Origin: Blattabacterium sp. DPU
Lineage (GTDB): Bacteria > Bacteroidota > Bacteroidia > Flavobacteriales > Blattabacteriaceae
DNA: 64,000 bases
Direction: 5' to 3'
Assembly (NCBI RefSeq): GCF_011290385.1
Contig: NZ_CP049785.1
Span: 124,001-188,000 of the forward strand
Within the stretch, counting starts at the first letter, position 1. Each line of letters opens with the position of its first letter. Under the pieces are notes generated by a model, which was not told where the DNA came from, ran no database searches, and was given only the letters and a program-made list of their open reading frames with translations. This document shows positions 16,004 to 33,316 of this stretch, piece by piece. The position numbers were made by a program, and so were the translations under genes.

Positions 16004-17062
16004 ATGAAAAAAAATATTTCTGTAATAGAAGGAGATGGAGTAGGACCTGAGGTGATCAAACAAACCATAAAAGTTTTAAATTCCATAGCTATAAAATATG
16101 GTCATGATTTCCATTATAAAAATATTTTAGCGGGATCCAAAGCTATAGAAAAATTAGGAGATCCGATGCCAAAAGAAACCATAGATAATTGTTTAAAATC
16201 AGATGCTGTTTTATTTGGTTGTGTTGGAGATCCAAAATATGATCATAATCCAATAGGTATGAGACCCGAAGACGGATTATTGAAACTTAGAAAAAAAATG
16301 AATTTATATTGTAATATTCGTCCTGTAGTAGTTTTTCCTAAATTAAATAAATCTCCTATAAAAAAAAAATTGTTAAATAAAGTTGATTTTATTATATATC
16401 GTGAATTAACGGGAGGAATTTATTTTGGAAAAAAAGGTCGTTATAAAAATGGAGAAGAAGCTTATGATTATTGTACTTATTCTAAAACAGAAATCGAGAG
16501 AATTGGAGAAATGGCTTTTAAAGCTTCTCTTCATCGTAAAAAAAAAGTAACATTAGTGGATAAAGCGAATGTACTAGAAACTTCTAGATTGTGGAGAGAA
16601 GTTATTAAAAAAATATCATTGGATTATCCCGACGTGCATCTAGATTTTTTATATGTAGATCACGCATCTATGCAAATTATTATGAATCCTAAAAAATTTG
16701 ATATCATTTTAACAGATAACATGTTTGGAGATATTCTTTCAGACGAATCTAGTGTTTTAACGAGTTCTTTAGGGTTACTTCCTTCAGCTTCTATAGGTAA
16801 TTGTAAATGTATGTTTGAACCTATTCATGGATCTTTTCCCCAAGCAAAAGGAAAAAATATAGCAAATCCTTTGGGATGTATTCTTTCAGGTTCTATGATG
16901 TTAGAATATTTTGGAATGTATCAAGAAAAAAATATTTTAGAAAAAGCAGTTAAAAATTCTATAGAAAAAAAAATATGTACTCCAGATATTATCGATTCCA
17001 AATTATCTTCCACTACGGAAGAAGTAGGTGATTATATAGAAAAATATATTATAAGTCAATAA
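16004..17062 (+). CDS. leuB: 3-isopropylmalate dehydrogenase
   Basis: NAD-dependent oxidative decarboxylation of 3-isopropylmalate, the last leu-specific step before transamination. RELTGGIYFG at 133-142 and DNMFGDILSDE at 239-249 are the IPMDH signatures that bind substrate, metal and cofactor. An N-terminal GDGVGPEV at 10-17 begins the Rossmann-like core. Length 352 is typical. It is the last gene of the leu operon and is convergent with the AddB-like nuclease, overlapping its 3' end by 14 bp. Isocitrate dehydrogenase is related but lacks this substrate motif. Confidence 0.96.
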   Translation: MKKNISVIEGDGVGPEVIKQTIKVLNSIAIKYGHDFHYKNILAGSKAIEKLGDPMPKETIDNCLKSDAVLFGCVGDPKYDHNPIGMRPEDGLLKLRKKMNLYCNIRPVVVFPKLNKSPIKKKLLNKVDFIIYRELTGGIYFGKKGRYKNGEEAYDYCTYSKTEIERIGEMAFKASLHRKKKVTLVDKANVLETSRLWREVIKKISLDYPDVHLDFLYVDHASMQIIMNPKKFDIILTDNMFGDILSDESSVLTSSLGLLPSASIGNCKCMFEPIHGSFPQAKGKNIANPLGCILSGSMMLEYFGMYQEKNILEKAVKNSIEKKICTPDIIDSKLSSTTEEVGDYIEKYIISQ

Positions 17063-19666
17063 ATTTTTCTACGAGAGGAATACTAGGATCTAGTAAATCA
17101 GAAATTCTTTTAATAAGAAATGGAAGAACATTTATTTTATAATTTGCATATGTTATGTTATTTTTTGGAGAATTAAAAATAGTTATAGGAACTAGTAATA
17201 TGTTTCCATTCATTTCTGGGGAAACATTTCCTATGATAGGAGATTTTTTTTTATTTTCTTTAAATATGTAAGATTCAAACCATAAATAAACATAAATCAG
17301 TAATTGCATAGTATTTGCATAATTTATATCATAAAAAATATTTTCAATATTTTTTGAAGAAACATTGATTTTTTTAATTTTTGAAAATCCTATTTTATAA
17401 TCAAGAATACGAGTTGTTCCATCATATTCATCTATCCTATCTATAATTCCATGTAAATTTACTTTTTTTGTTCCTACATTTAATATTGCAGACACTTTTT
17501 TTTCTATTTCTTTTATAAAAATTTTATGTCCATTTTTAATAAATTTCTCTTCCCATGAAATAAAATTTTCTATATAATTTTTTATAACATAATAAAGAAA
17601 CATGTTATGTCCTTCAATCATTTCTTTCTTTTCAAAAAAAACTCTTTTTATAGTACATTCATAATTTTGTTTCATTGTATGAATATAATCAATAGTTATA
17701 AAATTTTTTTTTATGGGATCATATAAAATTTTTAATATTTTATGAATAACTTCACCTATTTTTCTTTTATAGGAGATTTCTTCTTTATCCTTTAACTTAA
17801 GAACTTTTTTATAATAAAATAAAAGAGGATTATAATTGTATAAATGAATAGAAGAAGGAGATAATCCTTTTTTTATTAATTCATCTAAACATTGAATTAT
17901 AGATTTTTTTTTATTAATTACAATAGGGATTTTTTTAAAAATTATAGGAAAAAATGGCTTTTTTATTTTTTCTGTTGAAATTTTAGAATTTATTTCTATT
18001 CTGTGAATAAAACGACTTTTTTCTCCAGAATTAATTTCATCTGGTTGATTTTTATATATTAAATATGTTTGATTTGAAAATTGAAAAATCCTTGTTAAAT
18101 GATGAAAATAAAAATTTTCGTCGAATTTATCCATTTCTAATTTTTGATATATATCAAATGAAATAAAAGAACTATTTTCTTTATGATTTTTTGGAATTAC
18201 TCCTTCATTAAAAGAAGTAATAATTCCAACATCAAAATTTTCAAAAAATAAATCCATAAAACCTGTCACATATAATCCTTTTTGATTTTTATGTATATAT
18301 CGTATATTTTCTATATGAGGAAATTGTTCATATATGTTAAATATATCATTAATTCCTATAGAAAAATTTTTATTTTTTCTAACTATTATTCTTAATTTTT
18401 GTATATAAACTTCTAGTTTAAAAATAAATTTCAATTCCAAAAAATGTTTTCTAACATTTGTAATGAGCAACTTTTTGAATTTTCTAATAAAACTAATAAG
18501 ACTTATAAGAATTATTTTGATGTTATTAATTGGAATATTAAAAATAATCCACAAATTATTTTTATATAAGTATTTTTTTATTTCGTTTTCGAAAACATAA
18601 TCTGAATCATTTTCTATATTCAATTTTTTCAATACTGAATTTCTTTTTAAAAAAAATTTTTGAATATATCCATTGGATAATACTTGTACAACATCTTTTT
18701 TAGTGAATTTTTTGAATTTCTTTTTTTTTAACAGTAATTGAAATATAGAATAAAAAGTATAATAAATAGGAAGATCATTTAATGGATAATCTATATTGAT
18801 AGATACATCAACTCCTAATTTTTTTATAGAATGTACTAGTGGAATCGTCAAAGAATTATCTCCTGGTATTACAAGTATTTTATTAGGAGGGATTTTATTC
18901 TTTTTTATAAATTTACATATAATTTTTTCCACAGTTTTCACTTGTTCTATTTCTTTTGAAACACCAATAACTTTTAAATTATCATATTGTAAACGTGTTT
19001 TTGAACTGAAAAATTTTTTTTCACATAAATCATAAACTAGTCCTTGTTTACTTATTTTTCTAATAAAAATTTTTTCACATTCGTTAAATGCAACAGAATC
19101 AACAAGGAATAATACTATTTTTGTGTCTGAATTTTTATATAAAAAAGAATCTAAATGAGAAATTGATGTTTTGAAAAGCATTCCATAATAAGCAATTCCT
19201 TTCTTTAGGAGTTGAGATCTCAAAATATAATAATATTCATGAATATTTTCCCAAAAAAAAATTTTTTTTTTTCTACAAAATCAAGATTCCATTTACTTAT
19301 CTTTTCTGTAGAAATAATAGAAGAGAAAAAATGTTCAACATCAACCATATTTAAATCTATATTTTGAAAATTATTTAATATTTTAGGCGCCCAATTAAAA
19401 AAATAATGAAAATTTTTTTCCATAAAATCATCTTTTTTTAAAAGAGAAAAAAAGTAAAATAATATTGAATAATTATCCAAAATTTTTAGTCCAGAAACAT
19501 TTTCTAAAAATTCTTCCATTATGAAAAATCTAATTTTTGAATTAAATTTTGAACTGTGTTTATTTTTTATATATTCTATAATAGAATGAGATTTTGATAT
19601 GAAAAAAATTTTCTGATTAAAGTTTTTTACTATAAATTCGATAATATTGTCAATTTTTTTTTTCAC
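17049..19666 (-). pseudogene. AddB-like PD-(D/E)XK nuclease, frameshifted at a poly(A)/poly(T) junction
   Basis: Two frames together encode one flavobacterial PD-(D/E)XK nuclease with a degenerate helicase-like N-terminus, related to AddB/RecB repair nucleases. The first (19666 to 19220, 148 codons) runs into a stop just past a tract of 11 A then 9 T (sense; plus-strand 19253-19272). The second (open through the junction to a TAA at 17049) resumes with WENIHEYYYILRSQLLKKG, as expected for the family. One extra base would join them into about 870 residues. The nuclease core near 17400-17455 is intact: GIIDRID and ILDYKIG. Either a pseudogene or a gene rescued by slippage. Its 5' end overlaps ribF by 17 bp. 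Confidence 0.8.
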
Positions 19667-20588
19667 GAGAAAAAAATTTTTTTACATTGATTTTATCTAT
19701 ATATATTTGAGTTATTAACTCTTGTATAGAGTTGAATTTTTTTTCTTCACGGATGATATGAATCATTAAAACATCTATTTTTTTTCCATATATATTCTCA
19801 AAAAAATCGAATATATGCACTTCTATTTTTATTTTTTTATTTTCTCTCTCTATCGTAGGATTTATTCCTATATTTAACATTCCTAAATACATATTATTTA
19901 AATAATTAATTTTTACAGCATAAACTCCCTTTTTAGGGATTAATTTTTTAGAGTCTACTTGTATATTTGCTGTGGGAAAATTAATCTTTTTTCCTATTCC
20001 TTTTCCTTGTATCACATTACCAGATAATGTATAAAAATATCCTAAAGCTTGATTTGCCCACTGGATATTTCCTAATAAAAGAGATTTACGTATGTGAGTA
20101 GAACTAACTATTTTTTTTTTAAATTTTTGGGGATGAACCTGATAAACTCTTACTCCATAAATATGAGATATTTTTTTTAATTCTTCGTAAGAATTGTCTC
20201 TATTTTTTCCAATATGAGAATCATATCCAGTAACGATTTTTTTAATTTTATATTTAGGATGTAAAATTTTTTTCAAAAAATCTTTTGTTTTTAATCTTGA
20301 AAAATTTATAGTAAAAGGATGAATAATCAAGTGTTCTATTCCAGTTTTCTTTAATTTATATATTCTTTCAGAAAGTGTGTTTAAATAAAAAAAGTTTTTG
20401 TCTGAATTTAAAATTTCTTTTGGATGTGGATGGAAAGTAAGCAGAACGGAACAATATTTTTTTTTAGATCTCAAAATTAAATTTTGAATAATTTTTTTAT
20501 GACCTATATGAACCCCATCAAAAACTCCAAGTGTAAATACACATGGATAATTAGAAGAAAATTCATCAATTAATGAATAAATTTTCAA
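19650..20588 (-). CDS. ribF: Bifunctional riboflavin kinase/FAD synthetase
   Basis: Converts riboflavin to FMN and then FAD. The N-terminal adenylyltransferase domain has GVFDGVHIGH at 21-30 and TFHPHP at 51-56. The C-terminal kinase domain has GKGIGKKINFPTANI at about 195-209. Length 312 is normal. It partners functionally with ribE at 23.5 kb. The segment GYDSHIG at 121-127 departs a little from the usual GYDHxFG. It starts at 20588, divergent from atpD, and its 3' end overlaps the frameshifted nuclease gene by 17 bp. Confidence 0.95.
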   Translation of the reverse strand: MKIYSLIDEFSSNYPCVFTLGVFDGVHIGHKKIIQNLILRSKKKYCSVLLTFHPHPKEILNSDKNFFYLNTLSERIYKLKKTGIEHLIIHPFTINFSRLKTKDFLKKILHPKYKIKKIVTGYDSHIGKNRDNSYEELKKISHIYGVRVYQVHPQKFKKKIVSSTHIRKSLLLGNIQWANQALGYFYTLSGNVIQGKGIGKKINFPTANIQVDSKKLIPKKGVYAVKINYLNNMYLGMLNIGINPTIERENKKIKIEVHIFDFFENIYGKKIDVLMIHIIREEKKFNSIQELITQIYIDKINVKKFFSREKKN

Positions 20589-28882: not shown

Positions 28883-29489
28883 AGGAAGTTATAAAAATAT
28901 TAATCAGTTTTCAATTCATCATTCCTTTCCTGAATATGCATTTGTTGGACGTTCGAATGTAGGAAAATCTAGTTTAATCAATAGTATAGTTAAAAAAAAA
29001 ATAGCCCGGGTTTCTTCTTCTCCTGGAAGAACACAATGTATTAATTATTTTTTAATAAATCATCAATGGTATTTGGTAGATTTACCAGGTTATGGATTTT
29101 TTTATATAAAAAAAAATAAAAAAGAAACGCAAAAATTAATTACAGATTATATTTTTCATAAAAAAAACATCGTTTTTTTATTTTTATTGATAGACTGTAG
29201 ATTGATCATGCAAGAAATAGATTTAAATTTTATACAAAAATTAAACAATGCAAGGATCCATTTTTGTATTGTTTTCACAAAAACAGATAAATTAAGAAAT
29301 CATAAATGTATTGATGAAAATATTTCTTCTTATATTAATACAATTAAAAAAAATGATTTTACTATACCTATATGGTTTAAAGTATCCGTAAAAAATAAAT
29401 ATGGAATTGATAACATTATTCAACATATTAAAAAATTAAATGATTTTTATCAATCTTATAAACAAAAACTCATTATCCCCAATTCATAG
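28857..29489 (+). CDS. engB: Ribosome-biogenesis GTPase EngB/YsxC
   Basis: Essential GTPase of large-subunit assembly. G1 is GRSNVGKSS at 31-39, the SSPGRTQ segment at 53-59, G3 DLPGYG at 75-80 and G4 TKTD at 141-144. Length 210 is normal. I chose ATG 28857 (MKIFSVKFEG). A TTG four codons upstream is less likely. It starts inside the hydrolase gene and its 3' end overlaps convergent aroQ by 34 bp, one of the longer overlaps in the window. Confidence 0.95.
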   Translation: MKIFSVKFEGSYKNINQFSIHHSFPEYAFVGRSNVGKSSLINSIVKKKIARVSSSPGRTQCINYFLINHQWYLVDLPGYGFFYIKKNKKETQKLITDYIFHKKNIVFLFLLIDCRLIMQEIDLNFIQKLNNARIHFCIVFTKTDKLRNHKCIDENISSYINTIKKNDFTIPIWFKVSVKNKYGIDNIIQHIKKLNDFYQSYKQKLIIPNS

Positions 29490-29881
29490 GACTTGAATCC
29501 AAAACCAAAAATGGTTCCCTTACAAACAGGAGAAATAAACGATTTTTTTCTAAAAGATTCTCTAGAATAAATGTTAGATATGTGAACTTCTACAACAGGA
29601 GATAAAATAGATTTTATAGCATCAGCAATTCCTATAGAAGTGTGAGTATATGCTCCTGCATTTAACAGAATCCCATCCGATTTAAATCCTATAGAATGTA
29701 AAATATCTATAATTTTTCCTTCACTATTGTTTTGATAATAATCAATTTCTATATTATTAGAATGTAGTTTTATTTTTAATTTATTAAAATAATCTAAAAA
29801 ATTTTCATTTCCATATAACTCAGGTTCTCTTATTCCTAAAAGATTTAAGTTAGGGCCATTAATAATGGTGATTTTTTTCAT
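29456..29881 (-). CDS. aroQ: 3-dehydroquinate dehydratase, type II
   Basis: Third step of the shikimate pathway. The type II signature INGPNLNLLGIREPELYG opens the protein, with the catalytic Tyr23 in ELYG. NAGAYTHTS holds His80, and the catalytic His100 is in EVHISNIYSRESFRKKS. Length 141 is normal. It supports aromatic amino-acid and folate precursor supply, the latter linking to folP at 50.4 kb. Its 3' end overlaps convergent engB by 34 bp. Upstream on the same strand is the pseudouridine synthase gene, 10 bp away. Confidence 0.96.
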   Translation of the reverse strand: MKKITIINGPNLNLLGIREPELYGNENFLDYFNKLKIKLHSNNIEIDYYQNNSEGKIIDILHSIGFKSDGILLNAGAYTHTSIGIADAIKSILSPVVEVHISNIYSRESFRKKSFISPVCKGTIFGFGFKSYELGIMSFCL

Positions 29882-29891
29882 AAAAAAATAT

Positions 29892-30590
29892 CTATTTAGT
29901 AATATTTTCTATTTCTTTTTTATTTAAGAAACACCAGTTTCCTATTTTAAGATTTTTTTTGGTTATCCCTCCAAAATTAATTCGGTCTAATCGAATAACT
30001 TTATAATTCAGTTTTTTAAATACTCGTTTAATGACTCTATTCCATCCTATAGACAATCCTATTTCTATTTTATTTTTATCATTTTTTTTTATAAAAATGA
30101 CTTTAACTTTTCCTTCTTTTAAAGAAATTTTTCCTTTTCTTATTTTATCTAAATCTTCATTTATAATATTCTTATTTAATGATACATGATATATTTTTTT
30201 TATATGATATTTAGGATGAGTTAATTTTTCAGCTATATATCCGTCATTTGTTAAAAGTAAAACTCCTGTAGTAGAACAATCTAATCTTCCTACAGGAAAA
30301 ATTCTATATTCAGATAAACAAGAAATTAAATTCATTACTGTTCTTCTGTTGAATTGATCTCGTGTCGTAGTGATAAAACCTTTAGGTTTATTTAGTAATA
30401 TATAAATTTTATTTTTAGATTTAATTTTTGATCCATGAAATTTAACAATATCATTAGTATGAATAATCGTGCCTAATTTAAAAACAGGTTTTCCATTTAC
30501 TTCTATTACTCCAGATTGAATAAGTTGATCTGCTTTTCTCCTAGAAGAAATTCCTGCATTGGACAAGTAATGATTTAATCTTATTTTCAT
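29892..30590 (-). CDS. RsuA/RluB-family pseudouridine synthase
   Basis: Modifies uridine in ribosomal RNA. An S4 RNA-binding domain occupies residues 1-60 (RLNHYLSNAGISSRRKAD). The catalytic Asp104 lies in GRLDCSTTGVLLLTNDG, the RsuA/RluB/RluF-type motif. Length 232 is within the family range. RluB-like action on 23S rRNA is the most common role for a single family member, but RsuA or RluF specificity cannot be excluded from sequence. It lies between aroQ and the broken mevalonate kinase on the minus strand. Confidence 0.9.
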   Translation of the reverse strand: MKIRLNHYLSNAGISSRRKADQLIQSGVIEVNGKPVFKLGTIIHTNDIVKFHGSKIKSKNKIYILLNKPKGFITTTRDQFNRRTVMNLISCLSEYRIFPVGRLDCSTTGVLLLTNDGYIAEKLTHPKYHIKKIYHVSLNKNIINEDLDKIRKGKISLKEGKVKVIFIKKNDKNKIEIGLSIGWNRVIKRVFKKLNYKVIRLDRINFGGITKKNLKIGNWCFLNKKEIENITK

Positions 30591-30601: not shown

Positions 30602-31527
30602 TTAAAAACGAAAAAGTACTTTTATGGTGTATTTTTTCAATTTTTTTTGAGATAAATCATAATTTTGTGTAAAACCTAAAAAAAATCCTCCTCCTCCAGA
30701 ACCACATAGCTTCAAATAATACATGTTATTAAATATACCATCTTTCCATATTTTATAAAAATTTTTGGAAATCATGGGACGAAAATGATTAAAAATCCAA
30801 GTAGATAGAAGTTTTACATTTTTCAACAAAATTTTAAAATCTTTTTTTAAAAAAGCTTCAATACATTTTTCATTATATTTTATAAATTCTACAAAAAAAA
30901 TTTTTCTGAATTTATCATGTTTTAATTTTTTTAAAAAAAATTTCATCATAGAATTAGTTTTGCGAGGAATTCCAGAATTTAATAAGAAAATAGCTCCTTT
31001 TCCCTTATTATTATTAGGAATCTTTGTTATAGAAATATCTGTTTTAGATCGAATAAGTAAAGGTTTATTTAAATAGCAAATCAAAGGATCTATTCCAGAA
31101 CTTATTCCATGAAAAAAAGATTCCATTTTGCTAAAAATATTTTTTAATACTATAATATGTTTTTTTAAATATCCTTTTATTTTATGCTTTGCATATTTAT
31201 CATAAATTGCAGCTACTAATGCTCCAGAGCTTCCCAATCCATATCCTTTAGGAATATTTGAATGAAAAAATATTCCTTTTTGTATATCTCTATGTAACTT
31301 ATTTAAATCTAATTTTGTTGGAATTTGTTTTTTTTTTCTAAAATGGATAAAAAATTATAAAATTTTCTAATTTCATAATTAGAATATAAAATATCTTTAT
31401 TGAATTCAGAATGTACTTTCAAAGTCCCTTTGTAAATATCATGAGGAATAGAAAGTCCACTATAATTCTTCAAAATTCCATATTCTCCAAATAACAATAT
31501 TTTTGCCGGAAATAACGATTCCTTCAT
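30602..31527 (-). pseudogene. Mevalonate kinase (GHMP family), frameshifted at a poly(A) tract
   Basis: Two frames encode one flavobacterial mevalonate-kinase-type protein. The first, from ATG 31525-31527, reads FPAKILLFGEYGIL and stops after a 10-A tract (plus-strand T run 31328-31337). The second, open from the tract to 30602, contains PKGYGLGSSGALVAA, the GHMP ATP-binding motif, FFHGISSGIDPL, and the C-terminal CGSGGGGFFLG. One added A joins them into about 308 residues, the expected length, with no other defect. Both halves look well conserved, which favours slippage rescue, a recent mutation or a sequencing error over old decay. uppS at 32.6 kb depends on isoprenoid precursors. Confidence 0.82.
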
Positions 31528-32584: not shown

Positions 32585-33316
32585 ATGAAAAAATTATTAG
32601 AAAAAATAGATTACAATAATATTCCTCATCATGTAGCTATTATTATGGATGGTAATGGTCGGTGGGCTGAAAAAAGAGGAAAAAATAGAACATTTGGTCA
32701 TGAAAAATCAATACAATCTGTAAGAGATACGATTAACGGATGTAAAGAATTAGGAATTCCTTATATAACTTTGTATGTATTTTCTTCAGAGAATTGGAAT
32801 AGACCAAAAAAAGAAATAGATAATTTAATGCATTTATTTCAAACTAATTTAAAAATTCATTTAAAAGAAATTCATGAAAAAAATGTTAAAATTATCACTA
32901 TAGGAAAAATAGAAAAATTTTCTAAAGTGATTCAAGAAGAACTATTTTTCTTCATGAAAAAAACAAAATATAATACATCTGGAACTTTAATTTTAGCATT
33001 GAATTATGGAGCTAGAGAAGAAATTATAAGAGCAACAAAAAATATTACTAAAAAAGTATGTAATGGATTGTTTTCGGAAAAAGATATAGATTCTTCTTTT
33101 TTTCAAAATCATTTGTATACTAAAGATTTACCAGATGTAGATTTAATTATTAGAACAAGCGGAGAACAACGTATTAGTAATTTTTTACTTTGGCAATCTG
33201 CTTATGCAGAGTTATATTTTACAAATATTTTATGGCCCGATTTTAGAAAAAAAGATTTTTTCGAGGCTATAATCAGTTATCAAAAAAGAAAACGTCGTTT
33301 TGGAAACGTAGAATAA
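32585..33316 (+). CDS. uppS: Undecaprenyl diphosphate synthase
   Basis: Cis-prenyltransferase that makes the C55 lipid carrier for peptidoglycan. The catalytic Asp22 is in IIMDGNGRWAEKRG. The product-binding RTSGEQRISNFLLWQ (residues near 193-207) and the FxxxxWPD segment follow. Length 243 is normal. It is 6 bp upstream of bamA, the usual flavobacterial order nadK-uppS-bamA-skp. Confidence 0.96.
   Translation: MKKLLEKIDYNNIPHHVAIIMDGNGRWAEKRGKNRTFGHEKSIQSVRDTINGCKELGIPYITLYVFSSENWNRPKKEIDNLMHLFQTNLKIHLKEIHEKNVKIITIGKIEKFSKVIQEELFFFMKKTKYNTSGTLILALNYGAREEIIRATKNITKKVCNGLFSEKDIDSSFFQNHLYTKDLPDVDLIIRTSGEQRISNFLLWQSAYAELYFTNILWPDFRKKDFFEAIISYQKRKRRFGNVE

Follow-up and report, generated by a model that had tools for sequence, protein, structure and literature searches.

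The mevalonate kinase locus

The window analysed here, a stretch of 64,000 nucleotides, comes from a Blattabacterium genome of 623,008 bases in a single contig. On its minus strand lies a mevalonate kinase gene that is divided between two reading frames. The N-terminal part (31309..31527, minus strand) begins with the ATG at 31527 and encodes 72 amino acids (MKESLFPAKILLFGEYG...EKKNKFQQN, followed by the stop) in a frame that differs from that of the remainder. The C-terminal part (30602..31354, minus strand) is open from 31354 to its stop at 30602-30604 and carries both the GLGSSGA ATP loop and a CGSGGGG motif. It has no internal stop: its own frame contains the terminal stop only, whereas each of the five alternative frames has 10-27 stops. 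The point at which the frame has to be switched is a run of ten A's at 31328..31337 (minus strand; T10 on the forward strand). The frame of the N-terminal part stops at 31309, 19 nucleotides beyond this tract, and the C-terminal part stays open for about 245 codons after it. No plausible start codon of its own was found for the C-terminal part, and no lesion besides the A10 frameshift was found in the gene of the window. The gene is broken by one nucleotide missing (modulo 3) at the poly-A tract.

The original prediction described a gene split at a 10-A tract and otherwise intact, with GLGSSGA and CGSGGGG in the second frame and a product of about 308 residues restored by one added A. The tract, both frames and both motifs are there, and the arithmetic is exact: 926 nucleotides plus one make 308 codons and a stop, and the unbroken orthologue in one relative (G035) is 308 amino acids long. 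Two neighbours of the gene are relevant to what follows. An rsuA-type pseudouridine synthase gene (29892..30590, minus strand) is directly downstream. The uppS gene (32585..33316, plus strand), named from its sequence as encoding undecaprenyl diphosphate synthase, a consumer of the pathway product, is unsplit in the 49 genomes compared below.

Identity of the enzyme

The C-terminal part matches PF00288 with 30.3 bits, above the cut-off of 22.3, and its two motifs are those of a GHMP kinase N domain with a GxGxSSGA-type ATP loop and a C-terminal Gly-rich motif. Within this superfamily the best-scoring family is mevalonate kinase, TIGR00549. The unbroken orthologue, a member of a divergent flavobacterial branch, scores 61.7 bits, below the curated cut-off of 163, so fold, motifs and gene context are what the identity rests on. 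For a related orthologue without the break (L004), AlphaFold2 gave a model with a pLDDT of 86.9; in a Foldseek comparison with the PDB its 16 best matches are entries for mevalonate kinase or for homologues that bear the name MK, among them 2oi2, 2r3v, 6mde, 1kkh and 2x7i. In a free-living relative (L008) there is an apparent operon with the order MvaD-MVK-UbiA-RsuA, these identities being read from sequence, with an MvaD-like ORF immediately upstream of the kinase. This order and the RsuA neighbour at our locus support the same assignment. The gene is predicted, from all of this, to encode a mevalonate kinase of the GHMP kinase superfamily. Mapped onto the L004 model, the tract lies in the loop that joins helix 44-62 to helix 72-80, where the alignment shows poor conservation.

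Recurrence of the frameshift in Blattabacterium

We compared 49 Blattabacterium genomes. Both halves of mevalonate kinase are present in every one of them, and in 17 they are out of frame with each other; the break is at the aligned tract and is always a net -1 change (one nucleotide short, modulo 3). The tract is A10 in 15 of the broken genes and A11 in the other two. The remaining 32 genes have a single open frame, with longest A runs of 4 to 13. The distance between FGEY and GxGSSGA varies from 239 to 285 nucleotides, and despite many indels its phase follows a strict rule: modulo 3 it is 2 in all 17 broken genes, 0 in every aligned unbroken genome and 1 in none. In all 17 broken genes the N-terminal frame stops 4-25 nucleotides beyond the tract and in one of them, G031, the C-terminal frame opens right at the tract, which places the frame switch at the tract or beside it. 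An uninterrupted run of at least ten A's is found in 17/17 broken genomes versus 13/33 unbroken ones, outgroup included (genomes were counted singly and kinship was ignored).

The original prediction would not survive if the frameshift were an error of sequencing or of homopolymer assembly, and A10 runs are indeed error-prone on some platforms. This was tested with 13 further genes from the 20-kb stretches around mevalonate kinase, in which the 49 genomes have 222 tracts of at least ten A's. The gene is in frame at 220 of them, the two frameshifts being those of engB in G012 and G038. Mevalonate kinase has 17 frameshifts among 39 such tracts (against 2/222; Fisher p=4e-14), and they occur in 17 species, with varied flanks and in one phase. 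Random homopolymer miscalls would not cluster in this way, so sequencing error cannot account for 17 cases that share a phase. We regard the chance that error explains the pattern as next to nil, even though any single genome could still be misread at its tract.

Probable need for the enzyme

Whether a broken mevalonate kinase matters depends on where the cell obtains its isoprenoids. The original prediction supposed that the mevalonate pathway supplies them, and this holds for the lower half only: mevalonate kinase, a GYDIA GHMP kinase that is presumed to be phosphomevalonate kinase, and MvaD are present in 49/49 genomes. The upper half is gone, with HMG-CoA reductase in 0/49 and HMG-CoA synthase absent from the window's genome. 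A complete MEP pathway, which would make the step superfluous, was looked for as well; Dxr was found in 0/49 genomes and IspH is absent from the window's genome. Further along the route, a type-1 IDI-like gene (97.7 bits, below the curated cut-off) is probably a type-1 IDI, and a prenyl synthase and UppS are present. Type-2 IDI was also sought and gave weak off-target matches only.

Retention of the lower half without the upper one suggests that the kinase step probably starts from host mevalonate and is not dispensable. In a metabolic model of B. cuenoti, too, mevalonate had to come in from the host (PMC3819652), and we consider it to be probably host-supplied. If it is imported, then with no MEP pathway and only the lower half in place, every isoprenoid would pass through mevalonate kinase. 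With no MEP pathway, no HMG-CoA reductase and the lower enzymes in all 49 genomes, the kinase looks essential.

A side observation concerns the gene adjoining MvaD, which encodes a dicarboxylate/glutamate-type symporter (L003 1934-3103, minus strand; G000:C1 about 418071-419240). It could be an importer of host mevalonate, but we mention it as a speculative candidate.

Selection on the broken gene

In the C-terminal part dN/dS is 0.15-0.31 for broken sister pairs and 0.09-0.29 for unbroken pairs, both within the range of neighbouring genes. Rates on terminal branches relative to neighbours tell the same story (medians 1.16 for broken and 1.07 for unbroken genes, p=0.34). The C-terminal part is under purifying selection, and its rate of evolution is not raised compared with unbroken relatives.

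One might nevertheless suppose that each frameshift is a recent inactivation and that the gene is being lost, its conservation being merely decay that has not yet set in. In PMC6039017, mvaK of the P. fuliginosa Blattabacterium is indeed listed as a pseudogene, and true decay is known in the genus. An example is a corC-like gene (L136) of G039, with several frame changes in both directions and no long A tract, in contrast to the tract cases. The 17 broken mevalonate kinase genes look different: of the marks of a pseudogene, further lesions were found in none of these species and relaxed selection was not seen either, dN/dS and branch rates being like those of unbroken genes. Later indels either have a length divisible by three or bring the frame back, an evolutionary model without reversals fits much worse (see below), and no alternative isoprenoid route was found. 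Strict loss had been called unlikely in the original prediction. With the frameshift shared by 17 species, selection maintained, the lower pathway kept throughout and the MEP pathway missing, we would judge it very unlikely.

Origins and repairs of the frameshift

The tree was built from 13 neighbouring genes (4,604 columns; 34 of the 47 inner branches are starred). Nine changes between the broken and the in-frame state are needed on it, and at least eight are forced by starred branches. Of the broken genes, 15 belong to one clade of 24 genomes. A two-state reconstruction with an in-frame root gives a probability of being frameshifted of 0.975 for the ancestor of these 24 and 0.999 for a subclade of 15 genomes, and a model without reversals is 13 lnL units worse. 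G044, tentatively assigned as the Mastotermes symbiont, and G033 are origins of the frameshift separate from this clade.

Inside the clade the frame has been regained in a variety of ways. The A run is A11 in G035 and A8 in G043, and G002 has a net +1 with A12. In four other genomes the A10 is kept and the repair lies beside it: a loss of 2 nucleotides downstream in G047 (its sister G020 is still broken), a gain of 4 nucleotides upstream in G012, and upstream losses of 8 nucleotides in G045 and of 2 in G025. In the broken members G004, G031, G032, G020 and G013, all length changes near the tract are multiples of three. Neither such varied repairs nor such a restriction of indels is expected of a gene without function.

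The 24-genome clade can be tentatively equated with the symbionts of Blaberidae plus Blattella-type hosts, as G043, G047 and G045 appear to be those of Blattella germanica, Nauphoeta cinerea and Blaberus giganteus. The split between Blaberidae and other Ectobiidae has been dated to 134.7 Ma (110.6-162.0) (PMC5478607). With co-speciation, the broken state is probably of the order of 100 million years old. We hold this age as probable only, since the tract is a fast-changing homopolymer; with so mutable a run, the two-state reconstruction may make the time that a given lineage spent in the broken state look longer than it was.

How the frame may be restored

A gene that appears to be needed, is out of frame and remains under selection calls for some correction during its expression. 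The reading that we favour, with a probability of roughly 0.7, is that non-programmed insertion slippage of RNA polymerase at the A tract keeps mevalonate kinase functional. We infer both the slippage during transcription and its efficiency, and the following scenario is conditional on them. The polymerase would slip on A10, so that some of the mRNAs would carry one extra A. These mRNAs would be in frame and would yield the full-length enzyme of 308 amino acids, and unslipped mRNAs would yield the truncated product of 72. The switch would take place where a variable, Lys-rich loop connects two helices, and extra or missing lysines may be tolerated there. The enzyme so produced would catalyze the first step that turns mevalonate, probably host-supplied, into the isoprenoids of Blattabacterium. 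Historically, the frameshift would go back to the ancestor of the 24-genome clade, with at least two further origins in other lineages; the broken gene would have been passed on with purifying selection at its normal level, and different indels would have put it back in frame several times.

What one would look for in a slippage-rescued gene, an indel in an A/T run of at least 9 with the gene otherwise intact, and retention of the frameshift across species under purifying selection, is what we find. The properties of bacterial RNA polymerases are also suggestive. Most of their insertion errors occur within A/T runs, most add one nucleotide, and they become more frequent as the run gets longer; in the Buchnera transcriptome 151/157 insertions were in runs (PMC5574713). 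On 7-11 A's the efficiency of insertion is no less than twice that of deletion (PMC6260861). There are two points on the other side: the Buchnera data of PMC5574713 contained no frame-restoring transcription error, and for the E. coli polymerase A runs are reported to be less slippery than T runs (PMC6260861).

Slippage dominated by insertion predicts that surviving frameshifts should be net -1, the direction that is seen. The survey of frameshifts took in the 20-kb stretches around the mevalonate kinase gene, queried with start-trimmed ORFs, the mvaD and GYDIA loci, and the addB region. Net -1 cases at poly-A/T runs are 17 in mevalonate kinase, 7 in aroQ, 5 in MvaD, 4 in an addB-like gene, 2 each in GYDIA and engB, and one more in G047. 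Over the surveyed genes this amounts to about 38 net -1 against 2 net +1 gene-genome cases, or 14-16 against 1 if roughly independent origins are compared (p about 0.001 or less, on our own count of events). The exception is MvaD of the sister genomes G005 and G029, where tracts of A11-A13 carry a frameshift of the opposite sign. Altogether, MvaD is frameshifted at poly-A in seven species (loci L156-L162) and the GYDIA kinase in two (L170-L171).

Two further genes of the survey may be described for their own sake. The aroQ gene (3-dehydroquinate dehydratase) is intact in the window at 29456-29881 and frameshifted at A9-A13 in 7/49 genomes, in each case net -1 (L101, L109, L122, L124, L125, L135 and L144). 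The addB-like gene, for a PD-(D/E)XK-like DNA repair protein, occupies 17049..19681 on the minus strand of the window, where an A11 tract (19272-19262), followed by T9, divides it into the parts 19681-19220 and 19280-17049. Most relatives have it as a single frame (about 870-897 codons). The split seen in the window recurs at the identical site in G004 and G012, G047 is split elsewhere, and all are net -1.

A net -1 direction also fits -1 ribosomal slippage or a mutational deletion bias, and a deletion bias of DNA replication could contribute to it. The ribosome is the most serious competitor. Frameshifting to -1 on an A AAA AAA heptamer within the tract would mend all 17 mevalonate kinase genes and nearly all the other poly-A cases, and the upstream frame, GAA AAA AAA AAC, does contain such heptamers in the right phase. 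Unstimulated slippage on A heptamers is usually weak. Stimulators were not found: in 17/17 genes the 70 nucleotides downstream fold with z between -1.1 and 0.9 (pseudoknot-free folds), and Shine-Dalgarno-like AGGA, GGAG or GAGG upstream are missing from 17/17. With 80 nucleotides after the tract the fold in the window's genome is mildly stable (z -2.1); with the 70-nucleotide window no genome stands out. Furthermore, a -1 slip would not mend mvaD of G005 and G029. The opposite-direction mvaD and the missing stimulators set back the ribosome as sole mechanism, and its replacing RNA polymerase in restoring the frame seems to us unlikely, if still worth keeping in mind.

It is also conceivable that no frame is restored, the halves being translated separately by re-initiation or coupling and assembling as a split enzyme. 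Both halves are conserved and the stop of the N-terminal frame is close to the opening of the C-terminal one. But from the tract to the GxGSSGA loop the genomes share no start codon in the C-terminal frame. The earliest ATG that many of them have in common comes about 38 codons past the loop, and its use would cost the protein that loop; moreover, the reverted lineages re-fuse the halves. With no start codon shared upstream of the ATP loop we reject re-initiation, and a split enzyme is most improbable.

Comparison with known systems

Rescue of a poly-A frameshift by slippage is already known. What is unusual about insertion slippage in Blattabacterium, should it be confirmed, is the age of the lesion, its recurrence, its repeated repair and the one-sided direction. 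A bolder version may be put forward tentatively, as somewhat less likely to be true than false: that an essential frame has been broken for about 100 million years and sustained only by non-programmed polymerase insertion slippage, in a genus that tolerates only those frameshifts that the insertion bias mends. If this is true, polymerase error shapes which mutations are allowed. On the favoured reading, Blattabacterium genomes would hold essential genes annotated as pseudogenes. The 49 species, with tracts that are broken, repaired or never broken, are a natural experiment on how long dependence on transcription errors can last, on its beginning and end, and on whether survival of a frameshift depends on the direction in which the polymerase slips. 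The case also supports the view that Blattabacterium draws host mevalonate for all its isoprenoids. In the open-licence literature we found no discussion of slippage-rescued poly-A frameshifts in Blattabacterium papers, and a report outside it is possible.

The same gene has been seen broken in the same genus, in the P. fuliginosa symbiont, where it is listed as a pseudogene (PMC6039017). The closest parallels to the proposed rescue are Buchnera and Blochmannia. Several poly-A frameshifted genes are known in Blochmannia (PMC3017870), and for such genes in the two symbionts 12-50% corrected transcripts are given in PMC5009743. As in those cases, we are dealing with a reduced, AT-rich insect endosymbiont and with a single indel in a run of at least nine A's in a gene otherwise intact, a full-length product is expected from slipped transcripts, and some frameshifts are common to several species. 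Unlike them, Blattabacterium is a symbiont from the Bacteroidota. One tract is broken in 17/49 genomes, the broken ancestor would precede the Blaberidae/Ectobiidae split and was followed by several independent restorations of the frame, each of the three lower mevalonate enzymes is frameshifted in at least some species of the genus, and the direction is strongly one-sided. A more distant comparison is with spa13 and mxiE, virulence-system genes of the pathogen Shigella flexneri. These have A/T runs of similar length, A10 in spa13 and T9 in mxiE, on which polymerase slippage has been reported (named in PMC6260861); here, by contrast, the gene is that of a housekeeping enzyme and there is no sign of programming.
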